DNA from: Motilibacter deserti
GTDB taxonomy: Bacteria; Actinomycetota; Actinomycetes; Motilibacterales; Motilibacteraceae
NCBI RefSeq assembly: GCF_011250635.1
Contig: NZ_JAANNP010000001.1
Span: 838,933-902,932 of the forward strand
DNA length: 64,000 nt
Direction: 5' to 3'
Shown: in pieces, positions 48,687 to 57,503 of the stretch
Numbering within the stretch: position 1 is the first letter of the stretch
Layout of the letters: each line of letters opens with the position of its first letter
The notes under the pieces: generated by a model
What the model saw: only the letters and a program-made list of their open reading frames with translations
The model's database searches: none
Told to the model about the DNA's origin: nothing
Position numbers and translations under genes: made by a program

Positions 48687-49286
48687 GTGGCGCTCATCTC
48701 GCGCGGGTTCTCCGGGCGGCCGCGCTCGGACGAGCCCGACCTGCCCCCGGGGCAGTACCTCACCTCCGACTTCCCGGTGCTGTCGGCCGGGCCCACCCCG
48801 CGGGTGCCGTTGGACACATGGGCCTTCACGATCGTCACGGAGGCCGGGGAGCGGCACAGCTGGGACTGGAAGGCCTTCCGCCAGCTCCCCGCCGAGGACC
48901 TGACCGTCGACCTGCACTGCGTGACCCGGTGGTCCAAGCTCGGCACGAGCTGGCGCGGGGTCTCGCTCGACACCCTTCTCGAGGACGTCGAGACCGCGGC
49001 GGAGTACGCCCACGTCCGGTCCTACGGCGGCTACACGACCAACCTCCCGCTGGAGGACCTGCTCGACGGGCAGGCGTGGATCGCGTTCGAGTACGACGGC
49101 GAGGACCTCGCGCCGGAGCACGGCGGCCCCGCGCGGCTGCTCGTCCCGCACCTCTACCTCTGGAAGAGCGCGAAGTGGGTGCAGGGCCTGATCCTCACGC
49201 CTGAGGACGAGCCGGGCTTCTGGGAGACGGCCGGCTACCACATCTACGGGGACCCGTGGCGCGAGCAGCGCTACGCAGGCGACTGA
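48687..49286 (+). CDS. sulfite oxidase-like molybdopterin oxidoreductase (MsrP/YedY-like)
   Basis: 199 residues. SUOX fold with the molybdenum-binding cysteine at C78 (DLHCVTRWSKLGTSW), plus HVRSYGGYTTNLPLEDLLDG, HGGPARLLVPHLYLWKSAKW and VQGLILTPEDEPGFWETAGY. No signal peptide, unlike MsrP, so it is probably cytoplasmic. Its reaction is not known; family members reduce or oxidise S- or N-oxides. Coupled to a flavin reductase and a zinc-ribbon protein that may supply electrons. Confidence 0.87.
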   Translation: MALISRGFSGRPRSDEPDLPPGQYLTSDFPVLSAGPTPRVPLDTWAFTIVTEAGERHSWDWKAFRQLPAEDLTVDLHCVTRWSKLGTSWRGVSLDTLLEDVETAAEYAHVRSYGGYTTNLPLEDLLDGQAWIAFEYDGEDLAPEHGGPARLLVPHLYLWKSAKWVQGLILTPEDEPGFWETAGYHIYGDPWREQRYAGD

Positions 49287-49291
49287 CGCCG

Positions 49292-50023
49292 GTGCGGTGG
49301 CAGCCGGCCGAGGTGTCCGCCGTTCACGCGGAGACGCAGTCGGCCCGCACGCTGACGCTCCGCGTCGAGGGCTGGGCGGGCCACTTGCCGGGCCAGCACG
49401 TCGACGTCCGGCTCACCGCCGCCGACGGCTACACCGCGACGAGGTCCTACTCGATCTCCTCCGCGCCGGCCGAGGGCGAGCTCGAGATCACGGTCGATGA
49501 GGTACGCGGCGGCGAGGTCTCGCCCTACCTCGTGCGGGACGCCGCGCCCGGGGACGCCGTCGAGGTGCGCGGGCCGCTCGGAGGATGGTTCGTGTGGTCC
49601 CCCGACAGCATTCGGCCGCTGCAGCTGGTCGCGGGCGGGTCGGGCATCGCGCCGCTGATGTCGATGCTGCGCGCCCGGGCCGCCGCGGGGAGCACCGCCC
49701 CGGCCCGCCTGCTCTACTCGGTACGCCGTCCCGGGGCGGCGATCTTCGCCGCCGAGCTGGAGCGGCTGGCCGCCCCCGGCAGCGGGCTCGAGGTGACGTA
49801 CGCCTACACCCGCGCGGTGCCGCCCGGCTGGCCGCGCCCCGCCGGCCGCGTCGACGCGCGCCTGCTCGCAGAGGCGGCATGGCCGGCCGACCGGTCCCCG
49901 GACGTCTACGTGTGCGGGCCCACGGGCTTCGTCGAGACCGCCGCAGACCTGCTCGTGGCCGCCGGCCACAGCGCCACCGACGTCCGGACCGAGCGGTTCG
50001 GACCGACCGGGAGCACGTCATGA
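49292..50023 (+). CDS. ferredoxin/flavodoxin reductase-like FAD/NAD-binding oxidoreductase
   Basis: 243 residues from GTG 49292, five bases after the stop of the previous gene. FNR fold: HLPGQHVDVRLTAADGYTAT, RSYSISSAP (FAD-binding RxYS), GGEVSPYLVRDAAPGD, PLQLVAGGSGIAPLMSMLRA (NAD(P) site), and DVYVCGPTGFVETAADLL. It has no [2Fe-2S] domain. It probably hands NAD(P)H electrons to the upstream molybdenum protein. It overlaps the next gene by ATGA. Confidence 0.88.
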   Translation: MRWQPAEVSAVHAETQSARTLTLRVEGWAGHLPGQHVDVRLTAADGYTATRSYSISSAPAEGELEITVDEVRGGEVSPYLVRDAAPGDAVEVRGPLGGWFVWSPDSIRPLQLVAGGSGIAPLMSMLRARAAAGSTAPARLLYSVRRPGAAIFAAELERLAAPGSGLEVTYAYTRAVPPGWPRPAGRVDARLLAEAAWPADRSPDVYVCGPTGFVETAADLLVAAGHSATDVRTERFGPTGSTS

Positions 50024-50355
50024 CCGATTCCTTCTCCACGAGCCTGCCCGCACCCGACGGCAGCGCGCCCGACGGCACCGCCACCGTGCCCGAGCCGGCC
50101 TTCCTCGACGGGAACGCGGCCGCCGGCCCGCTGCGCGAGCTCTTCACCGTCGACCTCACCGCCGCGGTCGGCACGTGCGCCTCCTGCGGCGACGCCGGCC
50201 CGCTCGGCGGCGTCCGCCTCTTCACCCAGGCGCCCGGGCTCGTCGGTCGATGCCCGGGCTGCGAGGACGTGCTGTTCACGCTCGTGCGCAGCGAGCGCGA
50301 CACCTACCTGAGCATGAAGGGCTTCACGACGCTGAGGTTCCCGACCGCCGGCTGA
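50020..50355 (+). CDS. DUF6510 zinc-ribbon protein
   Basis: 111 residues from ATG 50020 (ATGA overlap). It has FLDGNAAAGPLRELFTVDLT, a zinc-ribbon made by CASCG and GRCPGC, and the C-terminal DTYLSMKGFTTLRF. Four cysteines fit one zinc or iron site. Small proteins of this type accompany the SUOX-like/FNR gene pair; I infer an accessory or electron-transfer role. Confidence 0.8.
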   Translation: MTDSFSTSLPAPDGSAPDGTATVPEPAFLDGNAAAGPLRELFTVDLTAAVGTCASCGDAGPLGGVRLFTQAPGLVGRCPGCEDVLFTLVRSERDTYLSMKGFTTLRFPTAG

Positions 50356-50364
50356 CCCGCCCGC

Positions 50365-50751
50365 TCAGCGCGCCTGGTAGGCCGCGACGAGCGCAGTGGG
50401 CGCGCACGCGGCCCATCCGTCCTCGAGCGCGGCCTGCAGCGCCTCCCGCGACACCCGGTCGAGCTGGACGAGCACGGCCGCGTACCCGTCGAAGTGCGGG
50501 ATGGTGAAGAACGCGTCATCGCCCGCCGCGAGCACGGCCTCCTTCTCGCCGAGGTCGGCGACGGCGACCGCGAGGATGGGCCCGGTCGGCGGGACTTCGT
50601 CGCCGTAGCGCTTGAGGTCGGCCTTGCTGAACGGGCGCTCCCAGGCGAAGGCCTTCTTCCCGACGACCCACGTGCGGTGGCCGTAGCGCGTCCCCTCGGC
50701 CACCTCGGGCAGGGCGGAGGCGAGGGCCGCGGCGTCGTCGAGGGAGGCCAT
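50365..50751 (-). CDS. MmcQ/YjbR-family protein
   Basis: 128 residues. Pattern ALPEVAEGTRYGHRTWVVGK, KAFAWERPFSKADLKRYGDE and FFTIPHFDGYAAVLVQLDRV is that of YjbR/MmcQ proteins with a CyaY-like fold. The family is called DNA-binding from structure, but no cellular role is firm. Convergent with the DUF6510 gene (9 bases apart). Confidence 0.85.
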   Translation of the reverse strand: MASLDDAAALASALPEVAEGTRYGHRTWVVGKKAFAWERPFSKADLKRYGDEVPPTGPILAVAVADLGEKEAVLAAGDDAFFTIPHFDGYAAVLVQLDRVSREALQAALEDGWAACAPTALVAAYQAR

Positions 50752-50888: not shown

Positions 50889-52592
50889 ATGACGCTGACG
50901 GCTCCTGAGACCGGACGCGAGTCTCACGAGCGGCCGGTGCTCCTCAGCGTCGAGGACGACCCCGGGGTGGCGCGAGCGATCGCCCGCGACCTGCGCCGGC
51001 GCTACGGCGACACCCACCGGGTGGTGCGGGCCGAGTCCGGGCCGGAGGGCCTGGACGCGCTGCGCGAGCTGACCGTGCGCGGCGACCGCGTCGCGCTGCT
51101 GCTCGCCGACCACCGCATGCCCGCGATGACCGGCATCGAGTTCCTCGAGCAGGCCATGGACCTGGTGCCCGACGCCAAGCGCGTGCTGCTGACGGCCTAC
51201 GCGGACACCGACGCCGCGATCCGGGCCATCAACGAGGTCGACCTGGACCGCTACCTGCTCAAACCGTGGGACCCGCCGGAGGAGCGGCTCTACCCCCCGC
51301 TCGACGAGCTGCTCAAGGAATGGGCGGCGACGTCGAAGGCGCCGACCGAGGGGCTCACCCTCGTCGGGCACCAGTGGAGCGCGCAGACCCAGCTGGCCAA
51401 GGAGTTCCTCGCCCGCAACGGCATTCCCTACCGCCACCTCGACGTTCGCGGCGAGGAGGCCCGTCGGCTGCTCGCGGTCGCCCGGCTGGACGACACGCCG
51501 GACGAGCTGCCCGTCGCCTTCATGCCCGACGGGACCGTGCTGGCGCGGTGCACGCCGCGCGACCTCGCCGAGCGGGTCGGGCTGTCGACGGCAGCCGGCA
51601 GCCCGTTCTACGACGTGGTCGTCGTCGGCGGCGGCCCGGCGGGGCTCGGGTCCGCGGTCTACGCGGCCAGCGAGGGGCTGCGCACCCTGCTCGTGGAGCG
51701 CGCCGCGACCGGCGGCCAGGCGGGCCAGAGCAGCCGCATCGAGAACTACCTCGGCTTCCCCCGCGGCGTCTCCGGGGCCGACCTCGCCCAGCGGGCGCGC
51801 GACCAGGCGCTCCGCTTCGGCGTGGAGATCGTGACGACGGTGGAGGTGACGTCGCTGGAGTCCTCCGGCGAGGGGCGCAAGGCGCACTTCGCCGACGGCT
51901 CGGAGGTCGCGTGCCATGCGGTCGTGCTCGCGACGGGCGTCTCCTACACGACGCTCCCGGCGCCCGGCGTCGCCGAGTTCACCGGGCGCGGCGTCTATCA
52001 GGGAGCGGCCGCCCACGAGGCGCACAACTGCGAGGGGCAGGACGTCTACATCGTCGGAGCCGCCAACTCCGCCGGGCAGGCCGCACTGTTCTTCGCAAAA
52101 TACGCTTCACGTGTCGTGATCGTGGCGCGCGGTGCGGACCTGCGCCGCAGCATGAGCGAATACCTCGTGGCCCGCATCGAGGCGTCCGACAACATCGTGG
52201 TCCGCACGTGCACGGAGATCGAGGCGGCCGAGGGCGGCGAGCACCTCGAGCGGCTGCGGCTGCGCGACAACCGCAACGACACCGTGGAGACCGTCGACGC
52301 CGAGTGGCTCTTCATCTTCATCGGCGCGAAGCCGCGCACGTCCTGGCTCGGCGAGGGGGTCGTACGCGACGAGAAGGGCTTCCTGGTCACCGGCCCGGAC
52401 CTGCTCGACGCCCAGCGGCGGCCGCCCGCGGGCTGGCCGCTCGACCGCGACCCCTACCTGCTGGAGACGAGCGTCCCGGGGGTCTTCGCCGCCGGCGACG
52501 TCCGCGCGACCTCGATCAAGCGCGTGGCCTCCGCCGTCGGCGAGGGCGCCCTCGCCGTCAGCCTCGTGCACCGCTACCTGGAGGGGCTGTGA
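50889..52592 (+). CDS. fusion of response-regulator receiver and thioredoxin-reductase-like flavoprotein
   Basis: 567 residues. Residues 15-140 are a CheY-like receiver (VLLSVEDDPGVARAIARDLR, phospho-acceptor D74 in LLADHRMPAMTG, K in YLLKPWDPPEER). A short linker domain (150-235) looks like a glutaredoxin/thioredoxin-fold segment (AKEFLARNGIPYRHLDVRGE). The rest is a FAD/NAD oxidoreductase of thioredoxin reductase type (VVVVGGGPAGLGSAVYAASE, VYIVGAANSAGQAALFFAKY, GVFAAGDVRATSIKRVASAV). The redox-active CxxC is absent: its place has AHNCEGQDVY with one Cys. It is coupled by GTGA to a histidine kinase gene. Likely a redox-linked signalling enzyme; substrate unknown. Confidence 0.88.
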   Translation: MTLTAPETGRESHERPVLLSVEDDPGVARAIARDLRRRYGDTHRVVRAESGPEGLDALRELTVRGDRVALLLADHRMPAMTGIEFLEQAMDLVPDAKRVLLTAYADTDAAIRAINEVDLDRYLLKPWDPPEERLYPPLDELLKEWAATSKAPTEGLTLVGHQWSAQTQLAKEFLARNGIPYRHLDVRGEEARRLLAVARLDDTPDELPVAFMPDGTVLARCTPRDLAERVGLSTAAGSPFYDVVVVGGGPAGLGSAVYAASEGLRTLLVERAATGGQAGQSSRIENYLGFPRGVSGADLAQRARDQALRFGVEIVTTVEVTSLESSGEGRKAHFADGSEVACHAVVLATGVSYTTLPAPGVAEFTGRGVYQGAAAHEAHNCEGQDVYIVGAANSAGQAALFFAKYASRVVIVARGADLRRSMSEYLVARIEASDNIVVRTCTEIEAAEGGEHLERLRLRDNRNDTVETVDAEWLFIFIGAKPRTSWLGEGVVRDEKGFLVTGPDLLDAQRRPPAGWPLDRDPYLLETSVPGVFAAGDVRATSIKRVASAVGEGALAVSLVHRYLEGL

Positions 52593-54022
52593 CCGACCTG
52601 AGCACCAGCACCGCCCGCGTCAGCCCGGACGAGCTGCGCAAGCTCTTCCTGTTCGAGGCGCTGCCCGAGTCCAAGCTGGAGTGGCTCTCCGAGCGCGGGG
52701 AGCGCCGGACATACGAAGCGGGCTCCGTGGTCTACCGCGAGGGCGAGCCGGCGAGCTGCTTCTACTCCATGCTCGAGGGGCGCATCCGCCTGCTGCGCAC
52801 GGTCAACGGCGAGGACGTCCTCATCAACGAGACGGACCACGTCGGGACCTACGCGGGAGCGATGAAGTCGTTCATCCCCGGGGCGGAGGAGGCCTACTTC
52901 AACTCCCTCGTGACGGTGGAGGCGAGCAGCTTCTATCAGCTGGACGCCTCGCTGTTCTCCGAGTTCATGCACGTGCACATGCCGATGGCCGTGCACCTGC
53001 TCGAGGGGCTCTACGTCGGCGTCCGCAACAGCGAGTCGGTCGTACGCCAGCGCGAGCACCTGGCCAAGCTCGGCACGCTGTCGGCGAGCCTTGCGCACGA
53101 GCTCAACAACCCCGCGGCCGCCGCCGGCCGGGCCACCGCGCAGCTGCGCGAGCGCGTCGACGGCCTGCGCCGGGGGCTGGCGATCCTCGCCGGGCCGCAG
53201 GTCGACCCCGGCGCCCTGCAGCGAGTGTTCGCCGCCCAGGAGTCGGCGGTGCGCCTGGCAAAGGAGGCGCCCCCGCTGAGCCCGCTGCAGCGCGCCGACC
53301 TCGAGGACGAGCTCGGCGAGCGCATCGAGGACGCCGGTGTCGACGGGGCCTACGACCTGGCCGCCGTCTTCGTCGGCGCCGGCCTGGGCACCGAGTGGCT
53401 CGAGGACGCGCTGGACGGCATGACCGGCAAGCTCGCGCAGAAGTGCCTGCGCTGGGTGGCGGACGCCCTCGAGACCGAGGCGCTCATGGACGAGATCGGC
53501 CGCTCGACCAGCGCGATCTCCGAGCTCGTCGCAGCAGTGAAGCAGTATTCGTACATGGACAGCTCGGCCGTCCAGGACGTCGACGTGCACGCCGGCCTGG
53601 AGAGCACGGTCATCATGCTCGGCCACAAGCTGCGCGCCGTGGAGGTGCTGCGCGACTACGCCGATGGCCTGCCGCACATCCCGGCCTACGGCGCCGAGCT
53701 CAACCAGGTGTGGACGAACCTCATCGACAACGCGGCGCAGGCGATGAACGGCCACGGGACCCTGACGTTGCACACCGAGCTCGACGGGGACGTCGTGCAC
53801 GTCGACGTCGCCGACACGGGGCCGGGGATCCCGGAGCAGGTGCAGCCGCGGGTCTTCGATGCCTTCTTCACCACCAAGCCGCAGGGGCAGGGCAGCGGGC
53901 TCGGCCTGGACAACGCGCGGCGCATCGTGGAGCGCCGGCACAACGGCTCCATCGGCTTCACGACCGGGGACAGCGGCACGACGTTCCGGGTCACGCTCCC
54001 CGTGGCCCAGCGGCTTTCCTGA
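52589..54022 (+). CDS. cyclic-nucleotide-binding-domain histidine kinase
   Basis: 477 residues from GTG 52589 (GTGA overlap). Residues 12-140 form a cNMP-binding fold (LFLFEALPESKLEWLSERGE, VVYREGEPASCFYSMLEGRI). Then comes an H-box LSASLAHELNNPAAAAGRAT with phospho-acceptor His170, a helical middle, and an HATPase_c domain (NQVWTNLIDNAAQAMNGHGT, DTGPGIPEQVQPRVFDAFFT, GSGLGLDNARRIVERRHNGS). No membrane helix, so it senses an internal signal. It probably phosphorylates the receiver fused to the neighbouring flavoprotein. Confidence 0.9.
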   Translation: MTDLSTSTARVSPDELRKLFLFEALPESKLEWLSERGERRTYEAGSVVYREGEPASCFYSMLEGRIRLLRTVNGEDVLINETDHVGTYAGAMKSFIPGAEEAYFNSLVTVEASSFYQLDASLFSEFMHVHMPMAVHLLEGLYVGVRNSESVVRQREHLAKLGTLSASLAHELNNPAAAAGRATAQLRERVDGLRRGLAILAGPQVDPGALQRVFAAQESAVRLAKEAPPLSPLQRADLEDELGERIEDAGVDGAYDLAAVFVGAGLGTEWLEDALDGMTGKLAQKCLRWVADALETEALMDEIGRSTSAISELVAAVKQYSYMDSSAVQDVDVHAGLESTVIMLGHKLRAVEVLRDYADGLPHIPAYGAELNQVWTNLIDNAAQAMNGHGTLTLHTELDGDVVHVDVADTGPGIPEQVQPRVFDAFFTTKPQGQGSGLGLDNARRIVERRHNGSIGFTTGDSGTTFRVTLPVAQRLS

Positions 54023-54092
54023 ATCCCTCGACCCGCCCGCCCCTCCCGGCCCCGCTCCGCGGCCGAGAGCCCCGTCCGACAAGGAGAGCACC

Positions 54093-54395
54093 ATGGCCGA
54101 CCCGTCGAACTGCAGCCACCTCGACACCATCGACGCGTCCGTCGCGCCCAGTGCCGACGGGTGCGAGGACTGCCTGAAGCAGGACGGCTGGTGGGTCCAC
54201 CTGCGGCTCTGCCGGTCGTGCGGGCACGTCGGGTGCTGCGACTCCTCCCCCTCCAAGCACGCCACCGCGCACAGCCGCAGCAGCTCGCACCCGGTGGTGC
54301 AGTCGTTCGAGCCGGGCGAGGACTGGCTCTGGTGCTACTCCGACGAAGTCGGCTTCACCCTTCCGGAGCTCACCCCGAGCCCGTCGCACAGCTGA
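54093..54395 (+). CDS. UBP-type zinc finger protein
   Basis: 100 residues with AAGGAGA upstream. Zinc ligands follow the UBP (ZnF-UBP) pattern: CSHLD, CEDCLKQDGWWVHLRLCRSC, GHVGCCDSSPSKHATAHSRS and SHPVVQSFEPGEDWLWCY. In eukaryotes the fold binds ubiquitin C-termini; bacterial stand-alone versions have no proven role. It follows the receiver-flavoprotein and kinase genes and completes the three-gene module. Confidence 0.87.
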   Translation: MADPSNCSHLDTIDASVAPSADGCEDCLKQDGWWVHLRLCRSCGHVGCCDSSPSKHATAHSRSSSHPVVQSFEPGEDWLWCYSDEVGFTLPELTPSPSHS

Positions 54396-55630: not shown

Positions 55631-56356
55631 CTGCTCGGCCGATCTACCCGCGTCGCGCTGCTCGCCCTCGCGCTGACGGGCTGCTCCCTGCCCGACTACA
55701 CGGCACCCGCTCCGGCGGCGCCCGCGCCGGCCGCGCCCACGTCCGGCGGGAGCGGGCCCGGCGGGAACGCGCTCGCGGCGCTCGACGCCCTGGTCGTGAA
55801 GGGCCGAGCTCCCCGGGCCGGCTACGACCGCGAGGAGTTCGGCCCGGCCTGGGCCGACGTCGACCGCAACGGCTGCGACACCCGCAACGACGTGCTCCGC
55901 CGCGACCTCGCCGAGGTGGCGACGAAGCCGGGCACCCGGGGCTGCGTCGTCGCCACGGGCACGCTCGTCGACCCCTACTCCGGCGCCACCATCGAGTTCG
56001 TCCGTGGCATGGGCACCAGCCAGGCCGTCCAGATCGACCACGTGGTCGCGCTCTCGGACGCCTGGCAGAAGGGCGCCCAGCAGTGGGACGAGGCGCTCCG
56101 CGAGGAGTTCGCGAACGACCCCCTGGAGCTGCTCGCCGTGGACGGCCGGCTCAACTCGGCCAAGCGCGACGGGGACGCCGCGACCTGGCTGCCGCCGGCC
56201 CGGCCGGCCCGGTGCGCGTACGTCGCCCGCCAGGTGGCCGTGAAGGCGAAGTACCGGCTGTGGGTCACCGCCGCCGAGAAGGCCGCGATCGGGCGCGTGC
56301 TCGCCGGGTGCCCGGACGAGCCGCTGCCCCCGTCGACAGTGGCCGCCCGCAGGTAG
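55631..56356 (+). CDS. secreted HNH-endonuclease-like lipoprotein, probable CTG start
   Basis: 241 residues. The N-terminus LLGRSTRVALLALALTGCSL is a lipoprotein signal (lipobox LTGC), followed by an Ala/Pro linker and a GmrSD/DUF1524-type HNH domain (YDREEFGPAWADVDRNGCDT, VQIDHVVALSDAWQKGAQQW and LNSAKRDGDAATWLPP). The two cysteines of the domain may form a disulphide. In this frame no ATG, GTG or TTG lies between upstream sequence and the lipobox; CTG 55631, eight bases after a GGAGGAGGAG stretch, is the best start. Proteins of this type are probably extracellular nucleases. Confidence 0.75.
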   Translation: MLGRSTRVALLALALTGCSLPDYTAPAPAAPAPAAPTSGGSGPGGNALAALDALVVKGRAPRAGYDREEFGPAWADVDRNGCDTRNDVLRRDLAEVATKPGTRGCVVATGTLVDPYSGATIEFVRGMGTSQAVQIDHVVALSDAWQKGAQQWDEALREEFANDPLELLAVDGRLNSAKRDGDAATWLPPARPARCAYVARQVAVKAKYRLWVTAAEKAAIGRVLAGCPDEPLPPSTVAARR

Positions 56357-56417
56357 GCCCGAGCGTTGAACCGACCCCGCCCGGTGCCCTACGTTGCGCC
56401 GGGACGGGGAGGATCGG

Positions 56418-57503
56418 GTGAAGGACACCGGGCCGGACGAGGAGCCTGCGGGCTTCTGGAGCTACGCGCACGCCGACGACGACGGCGAGGACGGGCGCCT
56501 GACCCGGCTCGCCGGGCGCGTCCGGGCCGAGTTCGCGGCGACCACCGGCAGCGACCTCGTCCTCTTCCTCGACCGGGACGCGCTGTCCTGGGGCTCCCAG
56601 TGGCGCGCCCGCATCGACGCCGCCCTGCGCGCCACGACGTTCTTCGTCCCGCTCGTCACCCCGAGGTACTTCCGGAGCCCGGAGTGCCGGCGGGAGCTGC
56701 TCGGCTTCGCGGGCCACGCCGAGAGCCTGGGGCTGCGCGAACTACTACTTCCGGTGTACTACATCGATGTCCCGGGCCTGTCCGAGGACTCCGCGGACGA
56801 GGCCGTCGCGCTGGTCGCCGGGGTGCAGTGGGAGGACTGGCGCGGGCTCCGTCTCGAGGACGAGCACTCGTCGGCATATCGCAAAGGGGTGGCGCGCATC
56901 GCCGCGCGGCTGGCGGCCCTCGCCGCTGCGCGGGCGCAGGAGCCGCGCGGACACGTACGCCGGCTCCCCCGGCCGGCCGACGACCGGCGGCACGAGCGGC
57001 TGGCCCGCTGGCACGCCACGGCGAGCGGCTGGGCCTCGGCCCTCGCCGAGCTTGCCGCCGCGGCAGCCCAGGTCGCGTCGGTCGTCGATCGGTCCGCACC
57101 ACGCCTGACCACGGCCACGACGGCCACGGAGCGCGAGGCCGAGGCCCGACGCCTGGCCCGCGAGCTGGTGCAGCCGGCGGAGCGGGTCTTCGCGTTGGGC
57201 AGCGGCCTCGCCGCTCGATCGGTCGAGCTCGCACCCGGCGTGCTGTCGACGGTGCGCGCGGCCGCCGACCAGCGCGACGACGAGGGGACCGGCTTCTTCT
57301 CGACGGTGCTCGGCCTCGCGGACGCGCTCGCGGAGCTCGCCGGAGAGGCCGCGTCCACCCGGCTCGTGCTGGGAAGGGCCCGGACGCTGAGCGATGAGCT
57401 GCACGGGCCGGTCGACCGCATCGCTGCGGGCATCCGCGGCATGGAGGACGCCCACACGGTGGTCGGGGAGTGGGCCCGGCTGGTCCGGCGGCTCCCGCGC
57501 TGA
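56418..57503 (+). CDS. TIR-domain protein with helical C-terminal region
   Basis: 361 residues from GTG 56418, with GGGGAGG 7 bases upstream. Residues 10-165 form a TIR domain (GFWSYAHADDDGEDGRLTRL, DLVLFLDRDALSWGSQWRA, RATTFFVPLVTPRYFRSPEC), with Glu89 in SPECRREL at the place of the NADase catalytic glutamate. The last 190 residues are helical and Ala-rich without known motif. Bacterial TIR proteins serve as NAD-depleting effectors in anti-phage defence or as toxins. No sensor partner (such as a STAND or Thoeris gene) adjoins, so the role is open. Confidence 0.82.
   Translation: MKDTGPDEEPAGFWSYAHADDDGEDGRLTRLAGRVRAEFAATTGSDLVLFLDRDALSWGSQWRARIDAALRATTFFVPLVTPRYFRSPECRRELLGFAGHAESLGLRELLLPVYYIDVPGLSEDSADEAVALVAGVQWEDWRGLRLEDEHSSAYRKGVARIAARLAALAAARAQEPRGHVRRLPRPADDRRHERLARWHATASGWASALAELAAAAAQVASVVDRSAPRLTTATTATEREAEARRLARELVQPAERVFALGSGLAARSVELAPGVLSTVRAAADQRDDEGTGFFSTVLGLADALAELAGEAASTRLVLGRARTLSDELHGPVDRIAAGIRGMEDAHTVVGEWARLVRRLPR

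Follow-up and report, generated by a model that had tools for sequence, protein, structure and literature searches.

Gene arrangement at the locus

We analyzed a 64,000-nt window of Motilibacter deserti (NZ_JAANNP010000001.1, 838,933–902,932, forward strand), in which three genes follow one another on the plus strand. The first (50889..52592; ATG at 50889, TGA at 52592) encodes P0001, a 567-aa protein composed of a receiver (REC) domain, a thioredoxin-fold domain, and an AhpF/TrxR-like flavoprotein. The second (52589..54022), with its GTG start in a GTGA overlap, encodes a soluble CRP-fold histidine kinase (P0002, 477 aa), and the third (54093..54395), with a clear ribosome site (AAGGAG) ahead of its ATG start at 54093, encodes a stand-alone UBP zinc finger (P0003, 100 aa). 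A sequence-only reading of this DNA had described a three-gene redox-signalling module at 50889–54395; all three genes were found there, GTGA overlap included, and its numbering of Asp74 and His170 was correct.

Co-occurrence of the three genes across genomes, which that reading had named as a check, bears out one half of the proposed module and modifies the other. The kinase gene was the next gene after the flavoprotein gene at 75 of 80 related loci, in most with the 4-nt overlap seen in the window, and of the 34 kinase matches in 197 Actinomycetota genomes, 29 lay within 3 kb and on the same strand as a member of the flavoprotein family. The UBP gene followed the kinase at 37 of the 80 loci. 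Because of these two frequencies the arrangement is not attributable to chance; the kinase–flavoprotein linkage stands, but the zinc finger is optional, and its consistent partner is the flavoprotein, whether a kinase is present or not. Scans of the window yielded no RNA family match (Rfam) and no promoter-like site ahead of the operon. Upstream of 110 receiver-flavoprotein genes, consensus scans gave no SigB-type sites, two AdpA sites against four expected, and four SigR-like sites against 1.6 expected, a count within the range of shuffled sequences, which reach five.

The novelty implied by the earlier reading is reduced by existing catalogues of REC–TrxB response regulators (PMC2716373, PMC9739842, PMC9953108). 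'TrxB' response regulators are an enzyme-output class in P2CS (PMC2716373, PMC9953108) in which, as here, a receiver is fused to a TrxR-like output and a kinase is adjacent, and SCO7297/SCO7298 of S. coelicolor are listed as a kinase/regulator pair (PMC9739842). The portions of the P2CS 'TrxB' entries accessible to us do not mention a dead thioredoxin fold, CxxC loss, a degenerate CNB domain, or a UBP partner.

The receiver, the kinase, and the tie between them

The receiver domain (aa 17–130; 50937..51278; Pfam Response_reg, 5e-13) retains the acidic pocket E22/D23/D24, the predicted phospho-acceptor Asp74 (51108..51110), T102, and K125, all conserved in nearly all kinase-linked homologs: of the 103 kinase-linked receivers that could be scored, 102 have Asp at position 74, and T102 and K125 are each present in 104/104. 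A separate clade without an adjacent kinase (n = 15) has a broken receiver in all 15 members, with Asp74 itself gone in ten, and a kinase ortholog is absent genome-wide from 12 of its 14 genomes. Four intact receivers have no adjacent kinase (L028, L081, L084, L138). An independent-pairs test relating decay of the receiver to loss of the kinase found only one informative pair, and the correlation of kinase presence with receiver integrity is essentially one phylogenetic contrast. In a covariation analysis of 78 kinase–receiver pairs (effective number 45; the receiver is too conserved for the analysis to be informative), pairs between DHp1 and the receiver were not enriched and DHp2–receiver pairs numbered five versus 2.9. 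Because the linkage is near universal and the receiver residues track an adjacent kinase, being kept beside it and lost in the kinase-less clade, the proposed wiring from kinase to flavoprotein is supported, and at the level of sequence we regard control of the flavoenzyme by the kinase as well supported. For REC-type members, a literature search turned up no measurement of phosphotransfer, flavin, or turnover.

The kinase carries an H-box (HELNNP) with the predicted phosphorylated His170 (53096..53098), invariant in 78/78 homologs, together with N and G boxes (N377, DTGPGIP, GLGL) and a HATPase_c catalytic domain (53696..54007; Pfam, 3e-25), and the structure model places a helical insertion (aa 207–275; 53207..53413) between the two DHp helices. 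Its input domain (52616..52978) has the CRP/CNB fold, as identified by Pfam (cNMP_binding, PF00027, 1e-10) and by the model, and its best solved CNB match is DNR. Cyclic-nucleotide binding relies on a Glu and an Arg of the phosphate-binding cassette. The Glu position (A91 in the window) is Ala in 72 of 78 homologs and Glu in two, and the window sequence has no Arg at the corresponding position, where the alignment is less certain. The earlier label 'cNMP kinase' therefore describes a fold that is present but does not hold as a statement about the ligand; judged by these residues, the CRP-fold domain is unlikely to bind cAMP or cGMP in the canonical manner.

A flavoprotein without its CxxC pairs

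Behind the receiver, the structure model places a thioredoxin/glutaredoxin-fold domain (aa 156–230; 51354..51578; predicted beta-alpha-beta-alpha-beta-beta-alpha, pLDDT about 90) for which Pfam gave no match; it has no CxxC, and its predicted cis-Pro, P208, is kept in 122 of 123 REC-type members. The TrxR-like FAD/NAD(P)H domains that follow (aa 240–565; 51606..52583) were identified by TIGR01292 (7e-63), Pfam Pyr_redox_2 (3e-35), and fold matches, with the TIGR01292 score of 212 bits far below the 343-bit family cut-off. The motifs GGGPAGLG, GGQAG, NSAGQ, and GDVR for FAD and NAD(P)H are conserved. In the AlphaFold model of the flavoprotein (pLDDT 91) the best whole-chain fold match was AhpF (4xvg, 4o5q), and TrxR was among the best fold matches of the FAD/NAD(P)H part. 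By sequence comparison, the segment equivalent to the TrxR CxxC site (51993..52031) lacks the CxxC and ends in a single conserved cysteine, Cys381. Neither the window protein nor any of the 144 aligned family members has a redox CxxC where the NADPH domain begins, and only one of the 144 has a CxxC in the thioredoxin fold. The earlier description of a receiver fused to a flavoprotein lacking the CxxC pair is upheld, and 'thioredoxin-reductase-like' suits the FAD/NAD(P)H part; the chain as a whole is AhpF/TrxR-like, and its thioredoxin-fold domain and Cys381 had been missed. The NADPH 2'-phosphate motif of low-Mr thioredoxin reductase, HRRxxxR, is likewise not found here, being VRGxxL in relatives and ARGADL in the window.

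Of 104 kinase-linked proteins, 98 retain Cys381, which might take part in the chemistry. The protein could be read as a genuine thioredoxin (or polysulfide) reductase working by unusual means, through this cysteine or by direct flavin-to-disulfide transfer. Such a reading would fit the names trxB3 and thioredoxin-disulfide reductase, and plasmids from Rhodococcus and Streptomyces carry a thioredoxin gene with WCGPC beside the UBP and cNMP-TrxR genes. SCO7298 (trxB3) is induced by polysulfide (HSnH) and its promoter is bound by AdpA (PMC9952706), and it is also induced by acid, but it lies outside the set of genes overexpressed in that study, and expression data are no proof of activity. Some disulfide-reducing activity is possible, because a cNMP-domain relative, ATII-TrxR, is reported to use NADPH for the reduction of DTNB and thioredoxin, at a kcat of 28 per s on its own thioredoxin (PMC6544261). 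Against a reductase stand the near-total absence of CxxC from both folds, the sub-threshold TIGR01292 score, and the loss of Cys381 in 14 of 15 members of the kinase-less clade. We consider thioredoxin-reductase chemistry unlikely and the reductase reading as a whole distinctly improbable.

AhpF, the top whole-chain match, shares with the window protein a thioredoxin-fold part joined to a TrxR-like flavoprotein, but it has two thioredoxin folds with working CxxC pairs, whereas the window protein has a single thioredoxin fold, lacks CxxC, and is preceded by a receiver in the same chain. TrxR-type ferredoxin/flavodoxin-NADP reductases also have a TrxR fold without CxxC; they lack receiver and thioredoxin domains, and the window flavoprotein is closer in sequence to TrxR than to them. 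The same flavoprotein core also occurs with a cNMP domain replacing REC or without any N-terminal domain. Three cNMP-domain TrxRs (L088, L089, L180) resemble the window protein in having a CxxC-less core, a thioredoxin fold, and an adjacent UBP gene; in these and in ATII-TrxR, a CRP-fold domain replaces the receiver and there is no kinase. The cNMP-fused core is a one-component counterpart of the cNMP-kinase and REC pair. The names trxB3 and 'cNMP kinase' are probably misleading, because the residues they imply, the CxxC and the cNMP-binding Glu, are absent from nearly all members.

We propose, with moderate confidence, that the locus encodes a soluble two-component system with an enzyme, not a DNA-binding domain, as its output, and with the UBP protein as an accessory to the flavoprotein. 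The kinase would read a cytoplasmic signal through its CRP-fold domain, autophosphorylate at His170, and pass the phosphate to Asp74 of the receiver. Phosphorylation would most likely change how the receiver and the dead thioredoxin domain sit against the flavin and NAD(P)H domains, thereby gating the flow of electrons from NAD(P)H via FAD to an acceptor, which would be reduced by something other than the usual dithiol relay. Information might instead flow in reverse: the flavoprotein would be the sensor, with the NAD(P)H or flavin redox state as its input, and would set the activity of the kinase through the receiver, while the kinase acts on other regulators. The missing CxxC is as compatible with a redox sensor as with an enzyme, NifL offers a precedent for a flavin-based regulator, and a kinase input domain without the cNMP-binding Glu agrees with this direction of flow. 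The flavoprotein core nevertheless persists in three further contexts that lack a kinase (broken-receiver, cNMP-fused, and bare), the full phosphorylation machinery of the receiver is kept where a kinase is present, and no other response regulator is annotated beside the loci whose gene tables were examined; we judge reversed flow unlikely.

The UBP zinc finger and its partner

P0003 matches zf-UBP (Pfam, 6e-14), and its closest solved structure is 2ida (6e-32). The zinc ligands C24, C27, C40, C43, C48/C49, H56, H60, and H66 are present in 78/78 homologs. The window zinc finger belongs to one fold family with 2ida and the eukaryotic ZnF-UBP domains of HDAC6, USP33, and USP5, and it retains both W and Y of their WCY motif. 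In ubiquitin-tail-binding ZnF-UBP domains, the Arg of the GRY motif contacts the C-terminal carboxylate; the bacterial UBP proteins have DSS-like residues in place of GRY, and the Arg position is Ser in the window and not Arg in at least 75 of the 78 homologs. The C-termini of the flavoprotein and kinase have no shared GG tail for the zinc finger to bind.

Among the 197 Actinomycetota genomes, 46 carry a UBP gene, 43 a flavoprotein, and 34 both (odds ratio 45, p 7e-20, the kinship of the genomes being ignored). UBP genes adjoin the flavoprotein without any kinase in actinobacteria, alphaproteobacteria, and betaproteobacteria, lying upstream, downstream, or divergently, and their neighbours in several phyla include the REC, cNMP-fused, and bare versions. 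Adjacency changed state 16 times on the flavoprotein tree, and a UBP gene is present somewhere in each of the 15 listed genomes that carry the kinase-less version. From this genomic context, UBP appears to be a consistent accessory partner of the flavoprotein and not of the kinase. It might also be a frequent hitch-hiker, a general stress-island gene functionally unconnected to the flavoprotein: it was not found beside 43 of 80 close relatives, 12 of the 46 UBP-bearing genomes have no flavoprotein, and UBP also occurs fused to Na+/H+ antiporter-like proteins. The varied orders and orientations with their repeated changes of state, the adjacency to all three flavoprotein versions, and the presence of UBP in every listed genome that has the kinase-less version argue against mere hitch-hiking, to which we give little credence.

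More tentatively, bacterial UBP could act independently of ubiquitin as a partner dedicated to AhpF/TrxR-like flavoproteins without CxxC, where it would stand in for the missing dithiol relay or steer it (for instance with an acceptor docked at the flavin), in a complex switched by an in-chain CRP-fold domain or by a CRP-fold kinase through the fused receiver. The kinase–flavoprotein pair is already known as a catalogue entry; in the literature accessible to us, no description of the zinc-finger/flavoprotein link was found. If true, the proposals made here would mean that an NAD(P)H flavoprotein, and not transcription, is under widespread two-component control, and would give a concrete starting point for finding what the UBP fold, familiar chiefly as a reader of ubiquitin tails, does in bacteria; SCO7297/SCO7298 of S. 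coelicolor offer a laboratory test bed. In addition to its conserved ligands, the window UBP has C7, H9, and C81, with D84 replacing the last Cys.

Anatomy of the operon

Three linked genes occupy the forward strand of the window: gene 1 (50889-52592, +) encodes a 567-aa protein in which Pfam recognises both a receiver (5e-13) and thioredoxin reductase (TrxR)-type domains for FAD and NAD(P)H (3e-35), gene 2 (52589-54022, +) a 477-aa kinase with a CRP/cNMP-type domain, His170 in an HELNNP motif and an HATPase domain (Pfam), and gene 3 (54093-54395, +) a 100-aa UBP zinc finger. Re-reading the window reproduced the coordinates in the sequence-only reading exactly, and the GTGA coupling described there is present as an overlap at 52589-52592, within which GTG is the start codon of gene 2. 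Neither the Pfam result nor the structure model contained a membrane segment in the kinase. A conserved helical insertion, unusual in a HisKA-type kinase, separates the two DHp helices (residues encoded at 53207-53413).

A YjbR gene (50365-50751, -) diverges from the operon. A three-gene set upstream (48687-50355) encodes a molybdopterin sulfite-oxidase-like protein, an FAD/NAD reductase and a DUF6510 protein, and at 55796-57503 a GmrSD_C (HNH-like) protein gene precedes a TIR-domain protein gene, both possibly for defence.

Linkage of kinase and receiver

Kinase and flavoprotein are kept together over actinobacterial genomes, and this part of the three-gene unit proposed from sequence stood. 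At 75 of 80 loci of gene 1 relatives (56-71% identical in the best segment) the kinase gene follows directly (73 from an automatic count, L065 and L083 by reading the loci), usually with the same 4-nt overlap, and 29 of 34 kinase matches in 197 Actinomycetota genomes lie within 3 kb of a gene 1 relative on the same strand. Some genomes carry three tandem kinase genes after the receiver-flavoprotein gene (L065; G125:C106; G174:C1).

Kinase-adjacent receivers (n = 104) retain D74 in 102 of 103 and T102 and K125 in all 104, whereas in a clade of 15 whose genes have no kinase beside them at least one of these residues is gone from every member (D74 from 10), and the receiver of L149 no longer gives a Pfam match. 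Twelve of the 14 genomes with this clade lack any kinase ortholog; the other two have their own kinase matches. The pattern, to be read with caution as one contrast on the tree and with four receivers intact without an adjacent kinase (L028, L081, L084, L138), is as predicted if the gene 2 kinase phosphorylates the gene 1 receiver.

Domain anatomy and gene linkage are directly demonstrated, and from them we infer all catalytic steps of the scheme that we consider most likely: a signal would reach the CRP-fold domain, His170 and then Asp74 would be phosphorylated, and the receiver and a dead thioredoxin fold would shift relative to the domains that bind FAD and NAD(P)H, so that the passage of electrons from NAD(P)H via FAD to an acceptor would change, with the zinc finger as an accessory. 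We rate the opposite direction of signalling, in which the flavoprotein would be the sensor, as less likely, since in several lineages the flavoprotein is present with no kinase.

The core of thioredoxin fold and TrxR domains is fused to a CRP-fold domain in L088, L089 and L180 and lacks an N-terminal domain in L152; the CRP-fold domain thus accompanies the core either directly or via kinase and receiver. "cNMP kinase", the earlier label, is supported for the fold recognised by Pfam but not for a cyclic nucleotide as ligand: the phosphate-binding-cassette Glu position is Ala in 72 of 78 family members and Glu in 2, and the closest solved cyclic-nucleotide-binding domain is that of DNR, which is not known to use cAMP. 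These features indicate that the label names the kinase's fold only and need not name its signal.

The kinase/TrxB-class regulator pairing has already been catalogued. Three sources give thioredoxin-disulfide reductase among response-regulator outputs in P2CS (PMC2716373), S. coelicolor SCO7298 as TrxB-class partner of kinase SCO7297 (PMC9739842), and one TrxB-class response regulator in a thermophilic cyanobacterium (PMC9953108). SCO7298, a putative gene 1 ortholog by TrxB class, kinase neighbour and genus, is induced by HSnH (as trxB3) and has AdpA bound at its promoter (PMC9952706), and acid shock raises it (PMC2631018).

Thioredoxin-fold domain and active site of the flavoprotein

A third domain (aa 156-230), overlooked in the sequence-only reading and without a Pfam match, separates the receiver from the flavoprotein part. 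In the AlphaFold model (pLDDT 91; alignment of 53 rows) it has the beta-alpha-beta-alpha-beta-beta-alpha topology of thioredoxin/glutaredoxin; P208, at the cis-Pro place, is proline in 122 of 123 receiver-type members, and inspection of the alignment found no CxxC in this domain of the gene 1 protein. Once the thioredoxin-fold domain is counted, the gene 1 chain is similar to AhpF (4xvg, 4o5q), the top match among solved folds that align over the whole chain.

The absence of a CxxC pair from the flavoprotein, noted earlier, was borne out: none of 144 aligned family members has CxxC at the TrxR position, where the family instead has G(V/I)(Y/F)YGAAxxEAxxC. A single cysteine about 10 residues beyond, C381, is kept by 98 of 104 proteins linked to a kinase and by 18 of 21 cNMP-type or bare flavoproteins, and 14 of the 15 members of the kinase-less clade have lost it. 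Because of this active-site segment and a TIGR01292 (TrxR) score of 212 bits, far below the 343-bit cut-off, ordinary thioredoxin-reductase chemistry seems unlikely; against this conclusion, a cNMP-type relative is reported to reduce DTNB and thioredoxin, and those residues that the paper names as redox cysteines (206/223, 376/467) are not a CxxC pair (PMC6544261).

The zinc finger and its probable partner

As a constant member of the unit the zinc finger did not hold up, following the kinase at only 37 of the 80 loci. Its partner appears to be the flavoprotein, because UBP genes adjoin kinase-less cNMP-type or bare flavoprotein genes (upstream, downstream or divergent) on plasmids of Rhodococcus, Streptomyces, Agrobacterium, Rhizobium, Microvirga, Novosphingobium, Paraburkholderia and Burkholderia; because the two co-occur over 197 genomes (34 with both, out of 46 with UBP and 43 with the flavoprotein; odds ratio 45 at p 7e-20, relatedness ignored); and because all 15 listed genomes with the kinase-less version carry a UBP gene somewhere. 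A literature search, with most subscription journals outside its reach, found no paper describing this link; bacterial zf-UBP mini-proteins are listed without function (PMC2602986).

A WCGPC thioredoxin gene also adjoins the UBP/flavoprotein genes in two plasmids. On the Rhodococcus and Streptomyces plasmids L088 and L180, the UBP/cNMP-type pair closes a chaperone row (DnaJ-like, CbpM, ClpB, thioredoxin; also GrpE in L180).

In UBP domains that bind ubiquitin, the Arg of the GRY motif holds the ubiquitin carboxylate; bacterial UBP proteins have D-S-S-like residues at this position and retain W and Y of WCY. The ligands C7, H9 and C81, which by analogy with HDAC6 we take to form one zinc site, are retained or lost as a set, missing in 36 of 40 module proteins and kept in four, including that of the window. 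The UBP is not exclusive to the flavoprotein, since it is also fused to antiporter-like proteins: a second UBP of the same genome forms the C-terminus of a long CPA1 Na+/H+ antiporter-like protein (G000:C234:287682-287867, L002), and comparable fusions occur elsewhere (L102; H154), a Deinococcus one annotated as cation:proton antiporter. A conserved tail, PGPAGRVPxDW, is frequent in module-linked zinc fingers without C7/H9/C81.
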